Shown: one piece after another, positions 13,932-37,392 of the stretch
How positions within the stretch are numbered: position 1 is the stretch's first letter
How the letters are laid out: every line of letters starts with the position of its first letter
From: a virus
Length of the DNA: 58,995 nucleotides
Reading direction: 5' to 3' (one strand)
Virus record (IMG/VR): IMGVR_UViG_3300049222_000252
Span: 1-58,995 of that record
Notes under the pieces: model-generated
What the model saw: the letters and a program-made list of their open reading frames with translations, nothing else
Told to the model about the DNA's origin: nothing
Databases searched by the model: none
Translations under genes and position numbers: made by a program

Positions 13932-14328
13932 AAAAAGTCCATTAGCACATTGTTATGCAAGTGTTTTACATAATCCAGAAACAAATAAAATGAGAAAGCG
14001 AGTTGCTCAATACGGTAAAGGCACTGGCAATGATAAGGCTTTAGCAGATGCAGAATCTAAAAGATCACCGCTTGCTAAAAAATCTAAAGTAAAAGGTGGA
14101 GGTACAACTAAAGTATGTTTGCCTGCTTCAAAAGTAAAATCAATGAGCGCTGCGGAAAAGAAAAAAGTAATTGCAGCTAAAAAATCTGCAGCGGCCAAAG
14201 GCAAGTATAAGCGTTCTAGTAAATCAAACGTTAAAGGTGCTCGTAAGAAAGGAGCAACACTTCGTGATTGGTTTGAAAAAGAAAATTGGGTAAACGTTGC
14301 AACGGGAAAACCGTGTGGTGAAGATTAA
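13924..14328 (+). CDS. Basic protein with C-terminal RDWFEKENWVNVATGKPCG motif
   Basis: A 134-residue, Lys/Ala-rich protein. The C-terminal segment LRDWFEKENWVNVATGKPCG is shared by small proteins of large DNA viruses and marine phages that are usually listed as an uncharacterised (DUF5872-like) domain; that name is from memory. The basic middle part (AAKKSAAAKGKYKRSSKSNV) resembles histone-like tails. It is the last plus-strand gene before the converging terminator. Confidence 0.65.
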   Translation: MNKKSPLAHCYASVLHNPETNKMRKRVAQYGKGTGNDKALADAESKRSPLAKKSKVKGGGTTKVCLPASKVKSMSAAEKKKVIAAKKSAAAKGKYKRSSKSNVKGARKKGATLRDWFEKENWVNVATGKPCGED

Positions 14329-14377
14329 GGAACAAAAATAAATAGGCGTACCATACCTAATAGTTCCTGTAACCAAG

Positions 14378-14411
14378 AAGGGGCCCTCAAACGAGGACCC
14401 CTTTTTTTTTT
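14378..14411 (+). terminator. Intrinsic terminator at the convergence of the two arms
   Basis: GGGGCCCTC (14380-14388), an AAAC loop and GAGGACCCC form a nine-position stem with one mismatch, followed by a run of ten or more T residues. This is a textbook rho-independent terminator for the plus-strand late operon. On the minus strand the hairpin is not followed by a T run, so it would stop early transcripts less well. Confidence 0.9.
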
Positions 14412-14412
14412 A

Positions 14413-16176
14413 TTATCCATCACAACTCAAGCAGTCTGAGTCCATAGCGCTTGCCGCTATATCACCTCTTAATACTGATTCAGTACGCATATAGTATAAG
14501 GTTTTAACACCTTTTTTCCATGCATCTAAATGAACTTGGTTAATCCATTTAGGTGTTGCTTCAGAAGGAAACGCTAGGTTTAAACTAACAGACTGATCTA
14601 CATACTGTTGCCGTATACCAGCTTGATTAACTAACTCTAATTGATTTATTTCCTTGAAGGTTTTAAATACATCTTTGACTTTATCAAAGCCTGTAGCTTC
14701 TAAATCATCTTGCTCGGATAACACTACTAACCTCCTATTGACATATCCAAAGTCATCTAATGGTAGATCCTGAATACTACCGCCATCAGCCATTATCTTA
14801 TCCCAAGTTTCTTTAGTATTGATACTAGCTTTTCTTAAGACTTTTTCGAGCTCTTTGTTCTTCCTAATGAACGTACCCTTCGCGCTTTGTTCAGTGAAAA
14901 CATTAGCGGCCCAAGGCTCAATGCCAGGACTAACATTACCGGCAAGCTTACTATTAGACACAGTAGGAGCAATAGCCCTGAGATGAGTGTTGCGCATGCC
15001 AGTGCCAACACACCAAAGAGGTTCGCCATAAAGTTCAGCCAAATCCCTAGAAGCCCTTTCACTTTCAATTTTGATTTGAGAAAATATACGTCTAGTTTCG
15101 AACTGTGCTTGTAATCCTTCGAATGGTATTCCGTTTCTTTGTAGGTATGTGTGCCAGCCCAATACTCCGAGGCCAAGCGCTCTACCTTTTTCCGCTGATC
15201 TAACTGAGTTCGCAAATCCGACTTTGCCTTTTGCTTTTTGTATAAACTCTTCAAGTACACCATCAAGAAACCATATAGCGTCATATATGAGGTTCGTGTT
15301 TTTCCATTCTTCATATTTAGATATATTTAAACTTGATAAGCAACAAACAAAGCTATGACTTTCATCTGTATGTAATGTAATCTCACTACAGATATTTGTC
15401 ATATGTACTTTTAACGCATTGTCTTTGTACGCTTTTGGATTTGCTTTGTTAGTATTTCCTTTAAAGAGTATATACGGTTCTCCAGTTGCTTTTCGTTTTC
15501 TAATAAGTTTACTCCATCGAGACCTAGCGTCTGCATCTCCTTGTTCAAGGCGACGCATAAATTTATCACCAACAACTGCGCACTGATGTAAATTAAGCGA
15601 TTGTCTGTTGACATCTCCTTTAGGTTCTCTAATTTCAAGCCACTCCTCAAAATCGTTGTGCTCAATGTTGATGTTAACTGAGGCTGCCCCTCGTCTAACA
15701 GACCCTTGATTAGTAGCGAGTATTGTTGAATCATAAATTTTGCAAAATGGTACGACTCCGTCTGATGTTCCATTACCTGTAATTTTAGCGCCAGCGGGTC
15801 TAATCTGATTGATACCAATGCCAACTCCACCGCCGTGCTTAGCGAGCAGCATCATCTCTAAATTTTTAGCACCGATATCATGTATACTATCTGCAACATC
15901 GATACCAAAACAACTAATCGGTAAACCTCTATCTGTACCTGTATTAGATAACACAGGGCTTGCTAAGTTCAACCAGCCTTTCCAAATATAATTGAAAAAT
16001 GTTTCAGCTAACTCTGGCCTGTCAAGTCTACGCGCAACTGTTTTGCATACTCGCTGGTATGCATCTCTTGGCGACTCGTCGTAGAGTAAATATCCCCCGG
16101 ATATAGTCTTCTTGTATACGTCTGTTTCTCCCCACTCTGGGTAATCAATTCCTTTTTTCCACTCATTATTCCACAT
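14413..16176 (-). CDS. nrdA: Ribonucleotide reductase class I, catalytic (alpha) subunit
   Basis: This 587-residue protein reduces ribonucleotides to deoxyribonucleotides with the beta subunit encoded just upstream. Visible catalytic features are Cys89 (PISCFG), Asn261-Cys263-Glu265 (NICSE), Cys278/279 before SSLN, the radical-transfer pair Tyr561-Tyr562 (KTLYYMR) and the C-terminal redox pair Cys582/Cys585 (DCLSC). It is much shorter than E. coli NrdA (761 residues), and the catalytic domain starts almost at residue 1, so the N-terminal ATP-cone that senses dATP is absent. Such an enzyme should escape dATP shut-off. It is the last gene of the early arm. Confidence 0.95.
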   Translation of the reverse strand: MWNNEWKKGIDYPEWGETDVYKKTISGGYLLYDESPRDAYQRVCKTVARRLDRPELAETFFNYIWKGWLNLASPVLSNTGTDRGLPISCFGIDVADSIHDIGAKNLEMMLLAKHGGGVGIGINQIRPAGAKITGNGTSDGVVPFCKIYDSTILATNQGSVRRGAASVNINIEHNDFEEWLEIREPKGDVNRQSLNLHQCAVVGDKFMRRLEQGDADARSRWSKLIRKRKATGEPYILFKGNTNKANPKAYKDNALKVHMTNICSEITLHTDESHSFVCCLSSLNISKYEEWKNTNLIYDAIWFLDGVLEEFIQKAKGKVGFANSVRSAEKGRALGLGVLGWHTYLQRNGIPFEGLQAQFETRRIFSQIKIESERASRDLAELYGEPLWCVGTGMRNTHLRAIAPTVSNSKLAGNVSPGIEPWAANVFTEQSAKGTFIRKNKELEKVLRKASINTKETWDKIMADGGSIQDLPLDDFGYVNRRLVVLSEQDDLEATGFDKVKDVFKTFKEINQLELVNQAGIRQQYVDQSVSLNLAFPSEATPKWINQVHLDAWKKGVKTLYYMRTESVLRGDIAASAMDSDCLSCDG

Positions 16177-24148: not shown

Positions 24149-24907
24149 CTACAGATAATCAATCACTTGAGAGTGATCTACGTTATCGATAAGCTTTTGT
24201 ACAGCAGCCCGTTTAAGCTCGCTTACGCGTACATAATTGCTTGTACCTTCAATATTTAATTTAGCCGCGATATCTTTAGCTGAATACTTATCGCAGTCAA
24301 GTCCATAGCTTAAACGTAACACTTCATATTCTTTTTCATCTAAGTGTTTTTGTAATAAACTTTTCAGATAACTATTAAGCAAAGCTATATTATATGGCTC
24401 AGACTTATCTTGTATCTGGTGTATCATACTCTCGCCTTCGTCGTTTGAAGGTTGAGCATCTATTGATAAAAATATAGAGTTGAAAAACATTTCAACCATC
24501 TTTTTGTCTTTAGGATTTTTACGTATCTCGTTCATCTTATGCTCAGGTATACGTATATCGCCTCTGTGCATATCGATTCTACGACGTATTGCGCCTTTAA
24601 TACGTTTGCTGAAGAAACTTTTTAAAGTCTTTTCTATATCATCAGACTCTTCAAGAGTTTTCCACTCAAGCTTATCAACAGCTTTTACCAAAGCATAACC
24701 GCCTTCTTGTATTAGATCGTTAATACTAAGCACACCTGATGCTTGCTGCGTAGTTGAAAACTTACGTGCTAAATTTTCTACAAGAGGTAGAAACTTAACA
24801 ACAAGCTCATTACGCGTGTAATCTTTAAAATCCCAATTACCTTCAGGCATAGACCGTTTAAGATCTTCTTTGTATCTTATGTAGTTTTGTACATTGTACT
24901 TTTTCAT
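24149..24907 (-). CDS. Sigma-70-family RNA polymerase sigma factor
   Basis: A 252-residue protein with sigma region 2 (VVKFLPLVENLARKFS, INDLIQEGGYALVKAVDKLE, FFSKRIKGAIRRRID, GDIRIPEHKMNEIRK) and region 4 with a helix-turn-helix (LRLSYGLDCDKYSAKDIAAK to VRVSELKRAAVQKLIDN). It should guide host RNA polymerase to phage promoters, most likely the late plus arm. It follows an HTH regulator with an ATGA overlap, so the two are co-expressed. No phage RNA polymerase gene is visible, which makes this factor the best candidate for the late switch. Confidence 0.88.
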   Translation of the reverse strand: MKKYNVQNYIRYKEDLKRSMPEGNWDFKDYTRNELVVKFLPLVENLARKFSTTQQASGVLSINDLIQEGGYALVKAVDKLEWKTLEESDDIEKTLKSFFSKRIKGAIRRRIDMHRGDIRIPEHKMNEIRKNPKDKKMVEMFFNSIFLSIDAQPSNDEGESMIHQIQDKSEPYNIALLNSYLKSLLQKHLDEKEYEVLRLSYGLDCDKYSAKDIAAKLNIEGTSNYVRVSELKRAAVQKLIDNVDHSQVIDYL

Positions 24908-26787: not shown

Positions 26788-27113
26788 AAGTTTTTTAATT
26801 TATTTTCTATATGTTTTATTTTTCCGTTAATTATAGCAGCTTTTTCATACTGCTCTTTCTCTTCGTAAGATGACAATAGGGTCATAAGTCTAGCTAGTTC
26901 TGACAAAAGTACTTCTTCATCTGAAGCATTTTGTTGCATACCAAAGTAAGGTTGTAGACTTACATCAACATCAGCACCTGACTGTTTTACCTGCTCGATA
27001 AACTGCTCATCAAGTTCTTTCTGTCTTTCCATTATTAGTTTGAATACTTTTTCTGCTAATATATCAGCAAAGTCATTCATTTCTTCTTGTGTCATACTAT
27101 TGTTCTTTATCAT
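26784..27113 (-). CDS. Coiled-coil protein of unknown function
   Basis: A 109-residue protein starting MIKNNSMTQEEMNDFADILA at 27113. It is acidic and helical throughout, and its C-terminal EEKEQYEKAAIINGKIKHIE resembles the short UVR-type helical hairpin seen in UvrB and UvrC. It overlaps both neighbours. The function is unknown. Confidence 0.6.
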   Translation of the reverse strand: MIKNNSMTQEEMNDFADILAEKVFKLIMERQKELDEQFIEQVKQSGADVDVSLQPYFGMQQNASDEEVLLSELARLMTLLSSYEEKEQYEKAAIINGKIKHIENKLKNL

Positions 27114-27552
27114 ATTTTTTAAGCGCAGCACCTGGTTTACCTACAAAGATAACTTTTTCTTCACGCGTATCGTATATAGTCATATAAGTCTCGTGACCTT
27201 CTTTAGGTAGTAAAGTGTATATGTAATCAACCCAACCTTCATCGTTATCGATTGGGTGTAAATACAAACCGCCAGGGCGATCTTTAAAGTGTTTTATAAA
27301 CTGAGCCGCGAAACAACCAGGCCCATTTGCATATCTATTAAGCTCTGGATCTCCGATGTATTTTTGAAAAGCTAAACCGTTTCCTATGCTAATACCTTCT
27401 AGCCATTTAGCATATTCTACTGCCATATACGAAGGATAACCATCATATTGCTGATAAATATTCACAAGCGCAAGCTCTGCTCTTTTATGTGCTACATCAT
27501 ACGCCAAACCTTCTTGACGCGGTATAATTCGCGTTAGTGATCTTGTTCCCAT
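27097..27552 (-). CDS. Conserved phage protein (MGTRSLTRII type)
   Basis: A 151-residue protein with start MGTRSLTRIIPRQEG at 27552, a start conserved in a large phage protein family (MGTRSLT..., then YQQYDGYPSYMAVEYAKWLE). The upstream in-frame ATGs lie within another small gene and are less likely. Conserved aromatic and Gly positions suggest an enzyme or ligand-binding fold, but no function is established. It contains VDYIYTLLPKEG and TYMTIYDTREEKVIFVG strands. Confidence 0.7.
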   Translation of the reverse strand: MGTRSLTRIIPRQEGLAYDVAHKRAELALVNIYQQYDGYPSYMAVEYAKWLEGISIGNGLAFQKYIGDPELNRYANGPGCFAAQFIKHFKDRPGGLYLHPIDNDEGWVDYIYTLLPKEGHETYMTIYDTREEKVIFVGKPGAALKKYDKEQ

Positions 27553-28720: not shown

Positions 28721-28810
28721 AGGCGTGGCAGGAATCGAACCTGCCTAACATAGTGTAGGTTGCTCTTATTTGCATTTATCCTCAAACACACTACTGACCA
28801 TTTCACGCCT
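28721..28810 (-). ncRNA. tRNA-like element 1 (T arm and acceptor, no canonical D stem or anticodon arm)
   Basis: On the minus strand, AGGCGTG pairs with CACGCCT to make a 7-bp acceptor stem. GCAGG-TTCGATT-CCTGC is a perfect T arm. Between acceptor and the next helix lies AAATGGTCAG, a D-loop-like stretch with GG but no D stem. TAGTGT pairs with ACACTA (28751-28756 with 28788-28793) around a 31-nt loop in place of a 7-nt anticodon loop. No CCA is encoded. The plan resembles the tRNA-like domain of tmRNA without the message part. It fills the gap between two small genes. Confidence 0.7.
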
Positions 28811-28818
28811 GGTCCACA

Positions 28819-29085
28819 CTAATCTAATAGTGTCATGTAAGCTGACGGGTTTGCTACTCGAAACCAGTCTAAACCTTTGCGGTGATCGTTCATAATCTTT
28901 TGAGATCTGTAACCTGTGCTCTCTAGTATCATGGTTGCACCCATAATAAAGTCATACATACTAAGCTCATTTGCATTTAACTCTGCAGGTTCGCCTGTAA
29001 ATATGTTTTCTACTGTACCACCTTCTGGATATACATCTCCATTAAACCATTTCGGTAGTGGCTTCATCTGCGTTTTCGTACTCAT
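28819..29085 (-). CDS. Conserved small phage protein
   Basis: An 88-residue protein, MSTKTQMKPLPKWFNGDVYP then EGGTVENIFTGEPAELNANE, ending LDWFRVANPSAYMTLLD. This pattern recurs in many marine phage genomes, usually annotated as hypothetical. It is the first gene upstream of tRNA-like element 1 and overlaps the preceding gene by 44 bases. Confidence 0.7.
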   Translation of the reverse strand: MSTKTQMKPLPKWFNGDVYPEGGTVENIFTGEPAELNANELSMYDFIMGATMILESTGYRSQKIMNDHRKGLDWFRVANPSAYMTLLD

Positions 29086-29506
29086 ATCCTTGTTCTATTA
29101 GTTCGTTTTCTATTTTTTCTTTAATATCGTTTACCATATTTCTATAGGACTCTTCAACAGCGTCTATAAATGGGTGCCAATCTAAGTCGTCGATATACAT
29201 ATTGTAGCCTTCTTGTATTGCTTCTGCAATTTCATCTGACAAATCATTTTCATAGTAGTGTATATCTTCACCAACACAAATGCTGTCAGTGTTGTTAGTA
29301 GCAATAAACACTTCATAACCGTCTGCAGTTGTTTCAGAGTAGCAATAAAAATCAAAGTGTTTGTTAGTCCATTGGTCTGAAACTTCGCAGTCATAATGCT
29401 TTTCAAGCAAGTTCCAAGCTTTAGTTTCGTCCATATCGTGGTACTCTAAGTACCCTTTAGCCTCTAACTTATCAGTTATCAGCTTATCTGTTATTATTTT
29501 TGCCAT
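29042..29506 (-). CDS. Acidic hypothetical protein
   Basis: A 154-residue, strongly acidic protein (MAKIITDKLITDKLEAKGYL; later DIHYYENDLSDEIAEAIQEG). It has no Cys-based motif or membrane segment. The acidity could suit DNA mimicry or host protein binding, but that is only a guess from charge. Confidence 0.6.
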   Translation of the reverse strand: MAKIITDKLITDKLEAKGYLEYHDMDETKAWNLLEKHYDCEVSDQWTNKHFDFYCYSETTADGYEVFIATNNTDSICVGEDIHYYENDLSDEIAEAIQEGYNMYIDDLDWHPFIDAVEESYRNMVNDIKEKIENELIEQGYEYENADEATTEMV

Positions 29507-29841
29507 TGTTTATTGTAGTAGTTTTTAAGTATATAATTGAATATAAAGTCAATACGGTTTTTTTCACCATATATCATCATACGTTTTCTGTTTGTCCAAG
29601 ATTTAAGCTCACCATACGTGCTTACAAACTTGTAAGGTACTTCGTAAGTTGGATTTATTTGATATCTTGCGTGGCAGTTTCTGTCAATCCTTACATAACC
29701 TGATTGATAAGAGGCTATTGTCACCTGCTTACCTCTTACCCTGTAAGGTAAAGCAAACTCTCTAGTGCCATTATTTCGCTGTTTAGGCGTCGTAATTTCC
29801 TCTACTCCCAAGTATTTCATCAGCGTAGTCGTATTTTCCAT
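29494..29841 (-). CDS. Basic hypothetical protein
   Basis: A 115-residue basic protein with a beta-rich middle (EFALPYRVRGKQVTIASYQS, then GYVRIDRNCHARYQINP). The start could also be the internal ATG at 29820 (MKYLGVEEI), which would shorten the overlap with the upstream gene. Not recognised. Confidence 0.55.
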   Translation of the reverse strand: MENTTTLMKYLGVEEITTPKQRNNGTREFALPYRVRGKQVTIASYQSGYVRIDRNCHARYQINPTYEVPYKFVSTYGELKSWTNRKRMMIYGEKNRIDFIFNYILKNYYNKQWQK

Positions 29842-30046
29842 AGTCTAATTCTATTAGTTTAAATATATAATTCCAAGTTTCTAGCTCACGCTTTGATGCG
29901 TCGAGACATAATTCTAGCTCATGAAGCGTTACAGCGCCTGTATTTTTGCGCTCAATATCATATTCTAACTTTCTAATCTCAATTTGTTTTGCATTGATTT
30001 TAGAAAAAGCTTTATCATGTGCTTTTAATTTAATTACTTCCTTCAT
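29783..30046 (-). CDS. Helical hypothetical protein
   Basis: An 87-residue protein starting MKEVIKLKAHDKAFSKINAK at 30046, a long charged helix (QIEIRKLEYDIERK) followed by a short acidic tail. The longer in-frame start at 30067 lies deeper in the upstream gene. No family is recognised. Confidence 0.5.
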   Translation of the reverse strand: MKEVIKLKAHDKAFSKINAKQIEIRKLEYDIERKNTGAVTLHELELCLDASKRELETWNYIFKLIELDYGKYDYADEILGSRGNYDA

Positions 30047-30284
30047 AGTTGTCAAAGATTTCGTCACCCCAAATGATTGAGATAGCTGATTGGTCTACAT
30101 AGCTCGTGTCAGAGAACATATGAACTCTTCTCATATCATCGATAGTTAGATCACCAATGAAGTATGTACTTTCAAGTTTGGCAATTACTTGCCTAACAGA
30201 TGAGCTGTATTTGCCTTCGTTTTCTTTGAGCTTAGCTCTAACTCTAGGCTTTAGCCTATTGTAAAGTGTAGGTATTTTAGTCAT
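30030..30284 (-). CDS. Small hypothetical protein downstream of tRNA-like element 2
   Basis: An 84-residue protein (MTKIPTLYNRLKPRVRAKLK) with a basic N-terminus and an acidic C-terminus. The segment VRQVIAKLESTYFIGDLTID followed by DMRRVHMFSD is unassigned. Translation starts 18 bases downstream of the tRNA-like element, so RNA processing there could expose this start. Confidence 0.6.
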   Translation of the reverse strand: MTKIPTLYNRLKPRVRAKLKENEGKYSSSVRQVIAKLESTYFIGDLTIDDMRRVHMFSDTSYVDQSAISIIWGDEIFDNYEGSN

Positions 30285-30301
30285 ATTTATTTAATTTTAG
30301 T

Positions 30302-30387
30302 GGACGTGGCAGGAATCGAACCTGCGTTTGAAGCATTTGGACTCGGTAACCCGTTATTTATTCGCTTCATCTAACCATTTCACGCCC
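30302..30387 (-). ncRNA. tRNA-like element 2
   Basis: Minus-strand GGGCGTG pairs with CACGTCC (seven pairs, one G-U). GCAGG-TTCGATT-CCTGC is a perfect T arm. AAATGGTTAGA replaces the D arm. TGAAGC pairs with GCTTCA (30329-30334 with 30364-30369) around a 29-nt loop holding a small CGG/CCG hairpin. The design equals element 1 although most loop bases differ, which speaks for selection on structure. No anticodon can be placed with confidence. Confidence 0.7.
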
Positions 30388-30390
30388 ATA

Positions 30391-30554
30391 AGGCAGCAGT
30401 TGCGGACTGGTAGTTAACTAGTATTGTCATTTATCCGCTCTTTCTGTTTTATTGAAGGTATGACTGAGACGCTCTAAGGAATACTCGTTCGATGAGTCTT
30501 ACACTCCGTTTCGTCTTAACCCTTTCAACTAACGTGACCAGTATGCCGCCGCCT
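30391..30554 (-). ncRNA. Folded non-coding RNA directly upstream of tRNA-like element 2
   Basis: The 160 bases between two genes fold on the minus strand into nested helices. An outer helix pairs AGGCGGCGG (30554-30546) with CTGCTGCCT (30399-30391), including two G-U pairs. TTGAA-A-GG pairs with CCTTCAA, AGACG with CGTCT, GGAGT with ATTCC and ACTC with GAGT. A second branch pairs GCGGA with TCCGC. G-U pairs occur mostly in the minus-strand sense, as expected for transcription in that direction. No frame of useful length is present. Function unknown; hand-folded only. Confidence 0.55.
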
Positions 30555-30741
30555 ATTTACGTCGCCAAGACCTGTGTACACTTGCAGACACTTCTTGGCT
30601 GACGATTTGAATTGTATTGCCTGTTTTGTGCTCAATGATAGGTATATAGCTGTAAGTTTTAGCTGTTGAACAATCAACACAAGTGTTATATCCTAGTTTT
30701 TGTCGCACTGGGTGCACATCATTTCCGCATCTACAATACAT
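30553..30741 (-). CDS. Small zinc-ribbon protein
   Basis: A 62-residue protein with MYCRCGNDVHPVRQKLGYNT and CVDCSTAKTYSY: two Cys pairs (CRC and CVDC) that could bind zinc. The C-terminus is basic (HRSWRRK). An early promoter-like motif ends 12 bases before its start, so the transcript may be almost leaderless. It precedes the folded RNA. Confidence 0.6.
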   Translation of the reverse strand: MYCRCGNDVHPVRQKLGYNTCVDCSTAKTYSYIPIIEHKTGNTIQIVSQEVSASVHRSWRRK

Positions 30742-30753
30742 AATTTGTTTATT

Positions 30754-30793
30754 TTATATTATTATCCAACGGTGTTCGTATTTTGTTTGTAAA
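30754..30793 (-). promoter_or_regulatory. Early promoter-like motif, copy a
   Basis: On the minus strand: TTTACAAACAAAATAC, nine variable bases, TGGATAATAATATAA. It is one of five copies with identical spacing. It begins inside the last codons of the upstream gene and ends 12 bases before the start at 30741. Confidence 0.7.
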
Positions 30794-30965
30794 GGATTTC
30801 AATAGTTTTACTAACCACTGCTTCCAATGCATCATAATAATCATCACCACTTAATTTATCTAGCGATGTACCATCAATAGCCCACTCTGCGTTTTGCATT
30901 AGTGTTTCTTTAGCTGTTGTAGCCATAAAATCTGCTACTTGCTCTATTTCTTTCATCTTACCCAT
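30762..30965 (-). CDS. Small helical protein
   Basis: A 67-residue acidic helical protein, start MGKMKEIEQVADFMATTAKE at 30965. The longer frame overlaps the neighbour. Its last codons (LYKQNTNTVG) are encoded by promoter motif a, a double use of the DNA. Function unknown. Confidence 0.55.
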   Translation of the reverse strand: MGKMKEIEQVADFMATTAKETLMQNAEWAIDGTSLDKLSGDDYYDALEAVVSKTIEILYKQNTNTVG

Positions 30966-30966
30966 A

Positions 30967-31158
30967 TTAAAAGTAGTATATTTCGTTATCAGCATGAGAC
31001 ATCCAGTTCACTTCGTCTAGTCTATAACCTTCAGAGGTAATAAACTCTTCAAAGTCTTCAGTTTGAAATGAAGATAACTGCTCATCGTTGAAGTGATCTT
31101 GCAAGTCATACTGGTCGACAGTGCCATTAGCGTAGTCTAGTATTGTTAAATAGTGCAT
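30967..31158 (-). CDS. Small acidic protein
   Basis: A 63-residue acidic protein starting MHYLTILDYANGTVDQYDLQ at 31158 after an A-rich leader; the longer form from 31212 would overlap the upstream gene by 67 bases. The mix of Asp, Glu and aromatic residues is typical of host-directed early phage peptides, but the role is unknown. Confidence 0.55.
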   Translation of the reverse strand: MHYLTILDYANGTVDQYDLQDHFNDEQLSSFQTEDFEEFITSEGYRLDEVNWMSHADNEIYYF

Positions 31159-31388
31159 TTTTTTATTTGTTTTAGTTGTTCGACTGAATATTGTTTGCTC
31201 GTCTCGCGCCACATACGGTGGTGAGTGAACTTACGAGCTTTAGCAAAACTCGATTTCTGACTGTGTTTAATACGAGTGTATTCTTTGTCAGTTAGTCCAC
31301 TGCACCTGCCTTCGTGGGCAAACTTGCGTCTATGCTCCGCAGCTCGCTGTTTTCTCATGAACGAAGAGTATTCGCATAGCTCTTTCAT
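31146..31388 (-). CDS. Small basic protein
   Basis: An 80-residue basic protein beginning MKELCEYSSFMRKQRAAEHR at 31388. It is Arg/Lys/His-rich (RKFAHEGRCSGLTDKEYTRI, then KHSQKSSFAKARKFTHHRMW). It could bind nucleic acid; no fold is recognised. An upstream ATG at 31403 is possible. Confidence 0.55.
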   Translation of the reverse strand: MKELCEYSSFMRKQRAAEHRRKFAHEGRCSGLTDKEYTRIKHSQKSSFAKARKFTHHRMWRETSKQYSVEQLKQIKKCTI

Positions 31389-31393
31389 AGTTG

Positions 31394-31597
31394 TTACGCC
31401 CATGGGTTGTCTGATTTAGGTACATAGGTTAGACCTTTGTAGTTGAACCATTGATATATACCTTCTTGGATATCGCCATTACCGGTTAGTCTTTGTTTAA
31501 AGCCAAATGATGGAGGTAGATTACCTACACTGTAAGGTTTATAAATTTCGCCGTTAAGCTTGATTGTCTTATCAGATAAGAATTTGATTGATTGCAT
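31394..31597 (-). CDS. Small hypothetical protein behind promoter motif b
   Basis: A 67-residue protein (MQSIKFLSDKTIKLNGEIYK) with beta-type sequence. Its ATG lies 13 bases after promoter motif b. Like three other genes in this region it begins with ATGCAA (Met-Gln) after AACT. Function unknown. Confidence 0.6.
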   Translation of the reverse strand: MQSIKFLSDKTIKLNGEIYKPYSVGNLPPSFGFKQRLTGNGDIQEGIYQWFNYKGLTYVPKSDNPWA

Positions 31598-31610
31598 AGT
31601 TTGTAATTGT

Positions 31611-31649
31611 TTATTATATTATCCAGTAAGTGTCGTATTTTATTTGTAA
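31611..31649 (-). promoter_or_regulatory. Early promoter-like motif, copy b
   Basis: Minus strand: TTACAAATAAAATAC, nine bases, TGGATAATATAATAA. It overlaps the final codons (YYK-stop) of the gene at 31640-31783 and ends 13 bases before the start at 31597. Confidence 0.7.
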
Positions 31650-31783
31650 TAATTTTGCTGCCATTGTGGAATACCTGAGTTATAGCGCTCATAATACTCA
31701 CGCTCAAACGCTTCTATTTGAGCTCTAGTTAGCTTTGCAAAAGTTAATCTAGTTCGTCTTCTTGTAGATTTGCTTCTATCCAT
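31640..31783 (-). CDS. Small basic protein
   Basis: A 47-residue frame from ATG 31783 (MDRSKSTRRRTRLTFAKLTR), with an Arg-rich start and a helical, aromatic end (FEREYYERYNSGIPQWQQNY). It overlaps the upstream gene by 40 bases in another frame and its stop lies inside promoter motif b, as for the genes at motifs a and c. Confidence 0.5.
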   Translation of the reverse strand: MDRSKSTRRRTRLTFAKLTRAQIEAFEREYYERYNSGIPQWQQNYYK

Positions 31784-31983
31784 TCGTTTTCTTCTTTTAG
31801 TACTTTATATTCTATTTTAACTATCAAGTCATTAAATAAATCTTGAGTAGTTTCACCGTCTTCTAAGTCACATTCATGAGTTACAAAGCTTAGTACTCTC
31901 TGTGATACGTGAGCCCAACCGTTTAAGTCGTATAGCTCAGCGAAGTAGTCTATTGTTTCTTCGTTCCAAGTAAATTCTTTCAT
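31744..31983 (-). CDS. Acidic hypothetical protein
   Basis: A 79-residue acidic protein starting MKEFTWNEETIDYFAELYDL at 31983, with an ATGA overlap to the gene before it. It contains NGWAHVSQRVLSFVTHECDL and an acidic C-terminus. Not recognised. Confidence 0.6.
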   Translation of the reverse strand: MKEFTWNEETIDYFAELYDLNGWAHVSQRVLSFVTHECDLEDGETTQDLFNDLIVKIEYKVLKEENEWIEANLQEDELD

Positions 31984-32177
31984 ATTGTTTCTTTGTTTAT
32001 AGCTTCGAGCATTTGCTCTAACACCCATTTAATTTCTTTTATACTATTACCGCCTACTGTAGCTCCTTTAGATGTATATCCATTGATTTTACCATCTTCA
32101 CTGTAATATACTTCGTGTATTTGATAGAAATCATCTTCACCATCTTTAGTTTTAATTACTCTGTAGTTCCAACTCAT
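31980..32177 (-). CDS. Conserved small phage protein (MSWNYRVIK type)
   Basis: A 65-residue protein starting MSWNYRVIKTKDGEDDFYQI at 32177, followed by HEVYYSEDGKINGYTS. This beta-hairpin-rich start is common among short proteins of phages and bacteria with unknown role. The stop of the preceding gene is two bases upstream. Confidence 0.65.
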   Translation of the reverse strand: MSWNYRVIKTKDGEDDFYQIHEVYYSEDGKINGYTSKGATVGGNSIKEIKWVLEQMLEAINKETI

Positions 32178-32178
32178 A

Positions 32179-32436
32179 TTAGTCGCCTTGATATCTAGTT
32201 GTGTCTGCATAATAAGCAGCAGCACTTGCAGTAGATAGCTCGCGACGGTATTCGTATAGCGCTCGGTTATCTAAGTAGTCATCGATTCTATGAATCATAT
32301 CTTGTTCTAGTTCTGTAGAGAACGATTGAATATGGTATGGGTGGAAGTTAAAATACTCGCATGAGTAACCACTTGCTTTGTTACCTTTATAGGTAGTCCA
32401 CTCGTGATATTCGTAAGGTATATTCCTGTGTTGCAT
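32179..32436 (-). CDS. Small hypothetical protein behind promoter motif c
   Basis: An 85-residue Tyr/His-rich protein (MQHRNIPYEYHEWTTYKGNK, then FNFHPYHIQSFSTELEQDMI). It starts 13 bases after promoter motif c, again with ATGCAA. Not recognised. Confidence 0.6.
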   Translation of the reverse strand: MQHRNIPYEYHEWTTYKGNKASGYSCEYFNFHPYHIQSFSTELEQDMIHRIDDYLDNRALYEYRRELSTASAAAYYADTTRYQGD

Positions 32437-32449
32437 AGTATTATTATTT

Positions 32450-32488
32450 TATATTATTATCCAGTTAGTTTCGTATTTTATTTGTAAA
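32450..32488 (-). promoter_or_regulatory. Early promoter-like motif, copy c
   Basis: Minus strand: TTTACAAATAAAATAC, nine bases, TGGATAATAATATAA. It overlaps the stop of the small membrane protein gene upstream and ends 13 bases before the start at 32436. Confidence 0.7.
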
Positions 32489-32624
32489 TACCAAAGTCTG
32501 CATCGAGCTTTCCGGTAATAAGACCGAAGATTAAGAAACCAATTCCTGATATTACCATTGTAGTTAAACCAATTGCAGTTGCATAAGTGATAGCCATGAT
32601 AGCTTTGTGAGTAAACTTTCTCAT
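32478..32624 (-). CDS. Small two-helix membrane protein
   Basis: A 48-residue frame (MRKFTHKAIMAITYATAIGL) with hydrophobic stretches IMAITYATAIGLTTMVISGI and GFLIFGLITG, then a short polar tail. Its ATG overlaps the stop of the preceding gene (ATGA). An early membrane peptide of this kind could alter the host envelope or exclude other phages; that is only a possibility. Confidence 0.6.
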   Translation of the reverse strand: MRKFTHKAIMAITYATAIGLTTMVISGIGFLIFGLITGKLDADFGIYK

Positions 32625-32755
32625 TTGTTAGTTGATTTATAGTAGTTAATTCTTTCTAATATTTCTTGTCTTTCTATAAGACCTTCCATTTGTTGTAGTA
32701 TGTCGCTTGACATATCTATCTGTTTCCCGTTAGGGCAAGTTAGTATATATTGCAT
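32621..32755 (-). CDS. Small protein after tRNA-like element 3
   Basis: A 44-residue protein, MQYILTCPNGKQIDMSSDIL then QQMEGLIERQEILERINYYK. The upstream in-frame ATG would lie within tRNA-like element 3, so 32755 is preferred; it shows the local AACTATGCAA context. A beta-hairpin with one Cys is followed by a helix. Unknown. Confidence 0.55.
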   Translation of the reverse strand: MQYILTCPNGKQIDMSSDILQQMEGLIERQEILERINYYKSTNK

Positions 32756-32770
32756 AGTTATTATTTTAGA

Positions 32771-32810
32771 AGTCACGGTGAGAATCGAACTCACATTAAC
32801 CATTGTGACT
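32771..32810 (-). ncRNA. Minimal tRNA-like element 3 (acceptor and T arm only)
   Basis: Minus strand: AGTCAC, then AATGGTTAAT, then GTGAG-TTCGATT-CTCAC, then C-GTGACT. AGTCAC and GTGACT form a perfect 6-bp acceptor-like stem next to a perfect T arm, joined by a D-loop-like linker that keeps GG. No anticodon arm or second helix exists; the element is 40-41 nt. It recalls the elbow half of a tRNA. It lies 16 bases before a small gene, and a TGTC/GACA plus GCTA/TAGC hairpin precedes it at about 32829-32871. Confidence 0.6.
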
Positions 32811-33132: not shown

Positions 33133-33160
33133 AGTTATGAATTTAAGTATTTATATTTGT

Positions 33161-33200
33161 TTATTATATTATCCAGTTGTTACTGTATTTTGTTTGTAAA
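33161..33200 (-). promoter_or_regulatory. Early promoter-like motif, copy d
   Basis: Minus strand: TTTACAAACAAAATAC, nine bases, TGGATAATATAATAA. This copy is intergenic and closest to the first early gene, which starts 28 bases downstream. Confidence 0.7.
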
Positions 33201-35838: not shown

Positions 35839-37392
35839 ATGTCAGACGCAATAGTAAAAAACCTTAACTTCGGTGAGCAAGCCCGAGCTGAAGTATTTGA
35901 AGGTATTGAAAAGTTAACACAAGCCGTTAGCTCTACACTCGGGGCTAGCGGTAAGTGTGTAATGCTTGAAGATGGGCAAGGTAAACCTGTTATTACAAAA
36001 GACGGTGTTACAGTAGCAGATAGTATTATTCTTTTAGATCCTGTAGAAAACATGGGTGCTACGCTTTTAAAAGAAGCCGCGCGAAAAACCGTAAAAGAAG
36101 CAGGCGACGGAACTACTACAGCTACAGTGTTAGCACATGCTATATTACAGCACGCTAACAACAGAGATGATGTTAATACACGTGATATGAAAAACGGTAT
36201 TGATTTAGCTGTAAAGAAAGTTGTAACGTATCTAGAAAACGCTTCTGTAGAAGTTACAGATGATATGTTAGATCATGTAGCAACGATTAGTTGCAATAAC
36301 GACGTTGAGCTTGGTAAGATCATAGGCGATGCGTTTAGATCTGTAGACAGAACAGGTGTTGTAATGATGGAAGCAACTGAAGACAATGAAACATCAGTTG
36401 AAATAGTAGAAGGAATTGAGTACGACAAAGGACTTGTTAATTCACATTTTATTACAAGTAAAACCAAACGTGCTGCCGAACTAGAAAACCCTCTAGTATT
36501 AATTGTAGAATCACCAGTTGAGAATATACGTAAAATACAAAGTGTACTCGAGTTTGTGATTAAAAACAACAAAGCGCTTTTAATTATTGCCGACTGTGAG
36601 CAAGCTGTCACATCAGCTCTTGCGATGAATAAAGTAAAAGGCAATATTAAAGTAAATGTAATCAATGCGCCTACATATGGCGTAAGTAAAAAAGATACGC
36701 TTTCAGATTTAGCATTGCTAACCGGAGCTACTGTAATCAATGAAGATCTTGGTGATGATATGGATTTAATCCAACCAGAATACTTAGGTCAAGCAGTTAA
36801 AAGTGTAACAACAGACACTGAAACAATAATTCAAGTTGATACAGATAACCCTAAAATCGACGAGCTTATATCTAGTTTAAAAGAACAATTAGTTAAAACA
36901 AAAAATCCTAATAAAGTTACTAAACTAGAAAAAAGACTTGCTCGCGTCTCTGGTAAAGTTGCTATTGTAAAAGTTGGGGCAAATTCTGAAATTGAATTAA
37001 AAGAAAAACAAGATAGAGTCGAAGACGCTATTTGTGCTACTAAAGCCGCTGTTAAAGAAGGTATTGTATCTGGTGGTGGTATTGCTCTTTTGAATGCTTC
37101 ACAAAATATAGAAGCAAGTAGTAAAGCCGAGCAGGTGTTACTTGATTCTATTCAAGCACCGTTCAAAACTATACTGAGCAATGCTGGTATTGAATCTTAC
37201 AAGATGCCTGATGCTGTGGGTGAAGGTTTAAATGTGGTTACAGGAAATATGGTAAATATGATACAGTCCGGTATCATAGACCCACTGCTCGTAACTAAGA
37301 GCGCTCTTCGGAACGCGGCTTCTGTAGCTACAACAATATTATCTACCGATTGTGTAATTAATAATCTTAGAATTAATGAAGGCAATAGGTAG
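35839..37392 (+). CDS. groEL: Chaperonin GroEL (HSP60), phage-encoded
   Basis: A 517-residue chaperonin with all domains. The equatorial ATP site shows ITKDGVTVA (Asp55) and GDGTTTATVLA (89-99); the apical domain (GIEYDKGLVNSHFITSKTKR) is complete; the C-terminal equatorial part has RVEDAICATKAAVKEGIVSG. It lacks the GGM-rich tail of bacterial GroEL (548 residues in E. coli) and ends NNLRINEGNR. It should form the folding barrel with GroES encoded immediately downstream; likely clients are the abundant capsid or tail proteins. Full-length chaperonins are rare in phages of this size. Confidence 0.96.
   Translation: MSDAIVKNLNFGEQARAEVFEGIEKLTQAVSSTLGASGKCVMLEDGQGKPVITKDGVTVADSIILLDPVENMGATLLKEAARKTVKEAGDGTTTATVLAHAILQHANNRDDVNTRDMKNGIDLAVKKVVTYLENASVEVTDDMLDHVATISCNNDVELGKIIGDAFRSVDRTGVVMMEATEDNETSVEIVEGIEYDKGLVNSHFITSKTKRAAELENPLVLIVESPVENIRKIQSVLEFVIKNNKALLIIADCEQAVTSALAMNKVKGNIKVNVINAPTYGVSKKDTLSDLALLTGATVINEDLGDDMDLIQPEYLGQAVKSVTTDTETIIQVDTDNPKIDELISSLKEQLVKTKNPNKVTKLEKRLARVSGKVAIVKVGANSEIELKEKQDRVEDAICATKAAVKEGIVSGGGIALLNASQNIEASSKAEQVLLDSIQAPFKTILSNAGIESYKMPDAVGEGLNVVTGNMVNMIQSGIIDPLLVTKSALRNAASVATTILSTDCVINNLRINEGNR

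Follow-up and report, generated by a model that had tools for sequence, protein, structure and literature searches.

Candidate excisable tRNA-like scaffolds with a slot for exchangeable modules between early genes of a phage related to viruses of marine Flavobacteria

Three tRNA-like elements, named E1, E2 and E3, lie on the minus strand between early genes of the IMG/VR virus record IMGVR_UViG_3300049222_000252, of which the whole stretch of 58,995 nucleotides (nt) is referred to here as the window. We propose, with a probability of roughly 0.5, that they are scaffolds resembling the tRNA-like domain (TLD) of transfer-messenger RNA (tmRNA), which RNase P and RNase Z would cut out of polycistronic early mRNA and which would carry exchangeable RNA modules. 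Comparison with related phage loci and contigs (labeled with L-numbers such as L007, L053 and L134) shows a conserved chassis, a slot that is either empty or filled by a module with a covarying stem, a tRNA-like trailer, and replacement of the element by a real tRNA at the same site. The slot is the region in the anticodon-arm position of the chassis; its content, measured up to the T stem, is called the interior. The three elements of the window are a small sample of a larger class. Their parts, and the genes that follow them, are listed below.

28721–28810, minus strand: E1, tRNA-like element of 90 nt (sequence, shuffles, folding energy, orthologous-site comparison)
28810–28804 with 28727–28721, minus strand: E1 acceptor stem AGGCGUG/CACGCCU, 7 base pairs (bp)
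28803–28794, minus strand: E1 D-loop-like linker AAAUGGUCAG
28751–28793, minus strand: E1 slot, a 6-bp helix UAGUGU (28793–28788) / ACACUA (28756–28751) enclosing 31 nt
28744–28728, minus strand: E1 T arm GCAGG-UUCGAUU-CCUGC
28720, minus strand: E1 3' end, U73, then CUAA
28502–28699, minus strand: gene of 65 amino acids (aa), MPNMSYC..., with its ATG 21 nt past the E1 acceptor stem
30302–30387, minus strand: E2, tmRNA-TLD-like element of 86 nt (Rfam match and comparison with relatives)
30387–30381 with 30308–30302, minus strand: E2 acceptor stem GGGCGUG/CACGUCC, 7 bp including G3-U70
30380–30371, minus strand: E2 linker AAAUGGUUAG
30329–30369, minus strand: E2 slot with putative cargo module, closing helix UGAAGC/GCUUCA (6 bp) around 29 nt, conserved interior GCGAAUAAAUAAC..GGUUACCGAGUCCAAAUGC
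30325–30309, minus strand: E2 T arm, identical to that of E1
30301, minus strand: E2 3' end, A73, then CUAAA
30030–30284, minus strand: 84-aa gene, starting 17 nt past the E2 acceptor stem; no PHROGs match
32771–32810, minus strand: E3, armless element of 40 nt with an 'empty' slot
Within E3, minus strand: acceptor stem AGUCAC/GUGACU (6 bp), linker AAUGGUUAAU, no third helix
32794–32778, minus strand: E3 T arm GUGAG-UUCGAUU-CUCAC
32770, minus strand: E3 3' end, U73, then CUAA
32621–32755, minus strand: 44-aa gene, starting 15 nt past the E3 acceptor stem

The original prediction had placed three elements here, with acceptor stems of 6–7 bp, perfect T arms with a UUCGAUU loop and a GG-containing linker that resembles a D loop without a D stem, and each of these traits can be read directly from the sequence, the T arms having 5 bp. 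As in tmRNA, AUGGU stands beside the acceptor, within AAAUGGU in E1 and E2 and within AAUGGU in E3. Chance occurrence was estimated from 30 dinucleotide shuffles, scanned for an acceptor stem, a T arm and an AATGGT linker. Matches bearing AATGGT arose at 0.03 per shuffle, and a 7-bp GC-rich acceptor joined to a T arm was found in none of the 30 shuffles, against the three elements observed. Compared with shuffles, the folding energy gave a z of -2.7 for E2, -1.9 for E1 and -1.1 for E3, so that energy alone is insufficient to establish E3. The predicted absence of a standard cloverleaf was borne out: ARAGORN reported 0 tRNA and 0 tmRNA genes in the window, and the Rfam covariance search returned neither a tRNA (RF00005) match nor a canonical cloverleaf with a 7-nt anticodon loop. 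As the window elements have no anticodon, they cannot decode.

The single relevant Rfam match in the window is that of E2 to tmRNA (RF00023), with 35.5 bits (E 1.2e-10), under the gathering score of 47 bits for this family; E1 and E3 gave no Rfam tmRNA match. G3-U70 and A73 are the alanine determinants of tmRNA and tRNA-Ala. Both are present in E2, whereas E1 has G3-C70 and U73, and E3 has U3-A70 and U73. No mRNA-like domain, tag reading frame or pseudoknots are found in E2, which measures 86 nt in total in the window, and the E2 interiors share no common content. The suggestion that the elements are shrunken tmRNA TLDs is well supported for E2 by the covariance match, G3-U70, A73 and the presence of mini-tmRNAs in equivalent places (see below), whereas E1 and E3 share the architecture but neither the family match nor G3-U70.

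Relatives of E2 were collected by sequence pattern. A scan of IMG/VR yielded 12 stretches, 11 of them with E2 and the remaining one in a 309-kb contig with several tRNAs; matches to pattern R1 in the 309-kb contig G008 lie where several tRNAs are located, and they were set aside as a group. When only the 17-nt 5' part of E2 was used, 36 stretches were obtained; in all, more than 36 phage contigs carry E2. The genome-collection scan for E2 gave one match, L089 (JAAGZR010000458.1), filed under an Aliivibrio metagenome-assembled genome; it belongs, as a stray contig, to the phage group described here and carries E2-type, E3-type and 41-nt E1-site elements. BLASTn with E2 found matches of T-arm size only, and a megablast of the early arm of the window against cultured phages found none.

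Among these relatives the acceptor, linker and T arm of E2 are almost invariant (alignment A1). Over 253 pairs, the 3' half of E2 diverges by 5.3%, and the gene next to it upstream by 55% at its fourfold-degenerate sites. All E2 copies detected through the 5' half have G3-U70, and A73 is kept too. The base immediately 5' of E2 is U or A, and the trailer ACUA follows 33 of 35 interiors. E2 is followed by various genes, by a tRNA or by a promoter-like stretch. The slot content, on the other hand, is variable: 35 distinct interiors of 33–107 nt (counted to the T stem) were seen, and their ends pair in nearly all cases. The closing helix averages 6.14 bp over these 35 interiors versus 3.48 bp after exchange of 5' and 3' halves between elements, with a maximum of 4.31 in 2000 permutations; the loci were picked by chassis sequence only, so that interior pairing was not part of the selection. 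The 6-bp helix that had been predicted for E1 and E2, and its lack in E3, are confirmed, but the region that had been taken for a merely enlarged loop of 29–31 nt is better described as an exchangeable module.

Other chassis follow the same plan. E3-type elements of 40 nt precede several different genes (L048, L058, L059, L060, L068, L074), and in L058 the outer pair is changed on both sides from A-U to U-A. L089 carries a 69-nt version of E3 with a 6-bp hairpin (GUUUAG/CUAAAC) in the slot. Further chassis are GGGUAAC..UUAUCC, UCUAGU..ACUAGA (43 nt) and AACUAG..CUAGUU. Over 21 chassis, compensatory change was found at 12 of 12 pairs and 95.6% of the cells are paired, figures that are biased towards structure because the scanner behind several rows demanded pairing. 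The expectation that the stems would differ in sequence and still pair, including a G-U, also holds in the relatives.

Phage attP sites often contain tRNA or tmRNA 3' ends, and phages of this relationship have many tRNAs and a tmRNA. The elements might accordingly be regarded as decayed tRNA or tmRNA genes, or as attP-type fragments left from integration. This is highly improbable: the chassis is almost invariant while neighbouring synonymous sites are near saturation, stem pairing is kept through compensatory change, each element has both a 5' and a 3' half, there are three of them per genome, and no integrase was found among the 30 window proteins scanned, a set that does not comprise every open reading frame.

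That the slot holds modules is shown for several E2 interiors by their recurrence outside E2, as identical stretches of 16–75 nt with different closing stems. The interior of the window E2 (GCGAAUAAAUAAC..GUUACCGAGUCCAAAUGC) recurs with another stem in L068, upstream of the E2 of that phage, and partly in L085 and L087. A 31-nt stretch of module M2 occurs twice in the single genome L053, again with differing stems. The inner hairpin of M2 covaries (ACUAU/AUAGU, GCCAU/AUGGU, ACUCU/AGGGU) around a constant GACGA loop. Modules are also nested: M4 lies within M5 (L007), M15 within M12 within M8 (L081), and M3 within M6 (L067). The M4 pattern was found at eight loci (seven contigs), all eight of which also have an E2-type element. 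In stem permutation tests per module, which are weak where copies are few, 2–13 of 500 permutations reached at least the observed value for M2, M3, M4 and M6; the tests for M11, M12, M13 and M19 were not significant. The M2 17-mer also matches unrelated coding sequences of other viruses, so that a single short motif is no proof of a module.

Similar modules are found in noncoding RNA directly upstream of E2 in the window:

30388–30552, minus strand: nested noncoding module array of 165 nt between the upstream gene and E2 (comparison with relatives)
Within 30388–30552, minus strand: outer module GGCGGCAUACUGGUCACGUUA .. AACUACCAGUCCGCAACUGCUGCC, with further modules in an internal slot
30504–30472, minus strand: inner module GUGUAAGACUC..GAGUAUUCCUUAGAG

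The folding energy of the array (30552–30388) does not differ significantly from that of shuffles (z -0.8), and its proposed structure is consequently based on comparison. Rfam scans of nine related loci returned only tmRNA, true tRNAs and a chance plastid match. Hypervariable nested arrays upstream of E2 were also observed in L051, L053, L054, L069 and L081, with conserved loops, covarying stems and no Rfam match where scanned. In L238 and L241 module M2 stands alone, with a terminator-like hairpin after it and no E2 context in the available sequence. Exchange of modules by recombination could be aided by two proteins encoded in the window, an Erf-like annealing protein and one resembling exonuclease VIII.

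The site of E1 was compared across 80 loci collected with the 65-aa gene, where an element had to end at most 60 nt from the ATG. A tRNA-shaped element precedes the ATG at 16 of the 80 loci, versus 0.08 per shuffled set, and none was found on the reverse strand. Of the 16 occupants, five are tRNA-Met and two are tRNA-Gln, the latter before a promoter-like stretch. Two more are mini-tmRNAs, one is of the E2 type, two are of the E1 type with 93 nt, three are armless forms of 41 nt, and one is of another kind. The E1 slot is missing from the 41-nt forms at the orthologous site in L134, L135 and L153. Trailer and leader, CUAACUUUAAAAUUAAUUAUU-AUG, are identical in L134, L158, L167 and L196, which indicates that the element was replaced in place. 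Another gene (MNRRK...) has tRNA-Met before it in L050, L061 and L070, and E2 in L065 and L075. More generally, an N73-C(C)-UAA trailer and a spacing of about 12–20 nt to the ATG are common to the elements and most of 17 canonical phage tRNAs. Real tRNAs at the same intergenic site, the many exchangeable occupants of the slot and the related modules upstream of E2 all go beyond what had been predicted.

Since elements and true tRNAs interchange at one site with the same trailer and ATG spacing, unrelated genes follow the elements and 40–41-nt armless forms are enough at some sites, the elements could be pure punctuation, i.e. tRNA-shaped cleavage signals between early messages, with arms and modules as filler. 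We consider this rather improbable. Filler would not be kept identical over up to 31 nt between copies with different stems, even in one genome (L053), and most orthologous junctions lack an element.

A mini-tmRNA of 78 nt (GGGGGUGAUAUGGUUUUGACG..CACCUCC-ACUAA) was found among the relatives, with the canonical acceptor and D-loop of tmRNA and with G3-U70 and A73 retained. The only two that were scored, in L148 and L154, exceed the Rfam tmRNA cut-off (53.1 and 64.7 bits, respectively). A scan for mini-tmRNAs detected them in five contigs, one of which is that of L154, bringing the total to six contigs; in the five scanned contigs the surroundings of the mini-tmRNA are as for E2, with module or tRNA-like sequence before it and a tRNA or one of various genes after it. 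BLASTn with the mini-tmRNA produced only 21–23-nt matches. A full tmRNA is present in Cellulophaga phages phi38:1 (NC_021796.1, 26803–27164, W07) and Calle_2 (MT732433.1, 42950–43311, W08), with the tag AQIEANMEAVNAILNLEVAVGV; the phi38:1 record has no tmRNA annotation at 26803–27164. R1 pattern matches in cultured relatives are mostly canonical tRNAs. Other tRNA-like RNAs in cultured phages are one with a long extra arm in phi38:1 and Calle_2 (L217, 979–1117, minus strand; L115, about 1501–1576), with a compensatory C-G to U-A change in the inner stem between the two, a 91-nt element in Maribacter phage Panino (L220, 4941–5031) that has the trailer UCUAA and lies some 22 nt ahead of an ATG, and an element in Tenacibaculum phage Gundel_1 (L107, 1470–1590) with two T-arm-like hairpins inside one acceptor stem. 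ARAGORN also made a 'tmRNA*' call in Panino.

The strongest rival explanation is that the elements are stand-alone tmRNA TLDs that would weaken host trans-translation by titrating SmpB (or AlaRS, EF-Tu); with only acceptor and elbow bound, the arm would be free to vary. If the tmRNA interior is skipped, the match of E2 to RF00023 spans the full element, the mini-tmRNAs of six contigs keep the tmRNA acceptor and D-loop, with two above the cut-off, and every E2 found by its 5' half has G3-U70. There is also a precedent: mycobacteriophage DS6A has a tmRNA that consists of hardly more than the TLD, without a tag frame, and a similar molecule strongly inhibits tmRNA, alanylatable or not, perhaps by SmpB titration (PMC4131195, PMC11915505). 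A decoy role leaves unexplained, however, why conserved modules recur and nest elsewhere and why canonical tRNA-Met can occupy the same site; no match to the tmRNA family was obtained for E1 or E3, and the relatives phi38:1 and Calle_2 have a full tmRNA instead. As a general explanation we regard it as unlikely, although for E2 and the mini-tmRNAs it may hold alongside the scaffold reading.

RNase P, RNase Z and the CCA-adding enzyme read the elbow and the acceptor stem of a tRNA. Because both are kept in every form, and trailer and A-rich leader are as in true phage tRNAs, we favor reading the elements as excisable scaffolds. Host RNase P would recognize elbow and acceptor and cut the 5' end, and RNase Z or the CCA enzyme would cut and repair the 3' end at N73-CUAA. 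This would free the element as a stable small RNA and give the message upstream a defined 3' end, and the next gene would keep an A-rich leader of 15–21 nt. Forms with G3-U70 and A73 (E2, mini-tmRNA) are predicted to be charged with alanine, and the slot module would be the functional cargo, while armless forms such as E3 would be the same chassis without cargo, acting only as processing signal or decoy.

Several observations weigh against this scaffold reading. E1 and E3 lack the G3-U70 alanine signal. No element was found at 64 of the 80 sites before the E1 gene, so that no essential element or processing site exists there, and E2 is followed in some relatives by a promoter-like stretch rather than a gene. 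Many interiors were seen only once, so that not all of them are established as modules. In the upstream array, most modules lie outside a tRNA-like chassis, which is hence not needed for every module. In addition, the pairing demanded by the scanner inflates the chassis covariation, and the counts are not independent, as the loci are related.

A further step, which we put forward tentatively and with somewhat less confidence than the scaffold reading itself, is that the elements form a natural RNA-display system, in which a tmRNA-derived chassis serves as excisable scaffold for exchangeable, nestable modules from a repertoire shared with the hypervariable array. The modules would act in host takeover or counter-defence, e.g. 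as RNA decoys, and be swapped along the arms race.

Terminase, portal and structural protein place the window near a Manatee Spring podovirus genome (61% TerL identity), Flavobacterium elemo phages (44%), Cellulophaga phages phi18:3 and phi38:1 and Maribacter phage Panino; the source phage thus appears to be related to viruses of marine Flavobacteria. Other features of the window are as follows.

14279–14416, minus strand: weak Rfam match to the MicX small RNA (27.7 bits, cut-off 75), probably chance
24149–24907, minus strand: RNA polymerase sigma factor gene
35839–37392, plus strand: GroEL-like chaperonin gene
About 30750–30800, 31610–31650, 32440–32490 and 33160–33200, minus strand: AT-rich recurrent stretches (TTTACAAA.. 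..GATAATATAA) before early genes, which look like a shared phage promoter

A sigma-70 scan found 32 promoters versus 26 expected, no clear excess.

Several known systems come close. The core of E2 is a variant of the already known TLD-only phage tmRNA. By published description, E2 and the 78-nt mini-tmRNA fit the plan of the DS6A molecule and of the mitochondrial and plastid tmRNAs that lack a coding sequence. In contrast to DS6A, the present phages have several elements per genome, between early genes, with a slot for many alternative modules and with 40-nt forms that have neither arm nor alanine signal; the passages on DS6A that were consulted mention no swapping with tRNA genes at one site. 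The scaffold reading, if correct, would connect the TLD-only phage tmRNAs, represented in the literature consulted by DS6A, with a wider class carried by phages of marine Flavobacteria. With bacterial tmRNA (ssrA, RF00023), E2 shares the acceptor G3-U70, A73, the AUGGU D-loop without D stem and the UUCGAUU T loop, but it differs by the lack of an mRNA-like domain, tag frame and pseudoknots and by its score (35.5 versus 47 bits). The tmRNA of phi38:1 and Calle_2 has the same ACUAA trailer as E2 and the mini-tmRNA.

Animal mitochondrial armless and D-armless tRNAs have lost the D arm and keep the acceptor stem, with a linker as replacement. The elements described here stand in a bacterial phage context, and E3 lacks the anticodon arm, which the mitochondrial tRNAs keep. 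If the scaffold reading is correct, a tRNA body can be stripped to 40 nt (acceptor, T arm and GG linker) and still be kept by selection. GOLLD and ROOL, large structured noncoding RNAs associated with phages (PMC12286853), differ from the modules here, which are small, nested and exchangeable; no GOLLD or ROOL Rfam match was found in the window or the nine related loci scanned. Searches of the open-licence literature in PubMed Central turned up no phage tRNA-like elements described as armless or arm-swapped, and likewise no exchangeable nested modules, 40-nt armless forms or swap with true tRNAs. The conserved interiors would constitute a catalogue of RNA motifs, each of which can be tested singly for host targets, and the occurrence of tRNAs and tRNA-like elements at one site would allow a direct test of whether phage tRNA genes serve mRNA processing rather than decoding.

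In mascRNA-type elements and the engineered 'tRNA scaffold', a body of acceptor and T arm provides for excision by RNase P and RNase Z and for stability, and in the scaffold a cargo RNA replaces the anticodon arm. Aptamer-tagged tRNAs are an engineered example (PMC7590224). Whereas those systems are eukaryotic or artificial, the phage elements would be a natural counterpart to the synthetic tRNA scaffold, with a shared repertoire of interchangeable modules.

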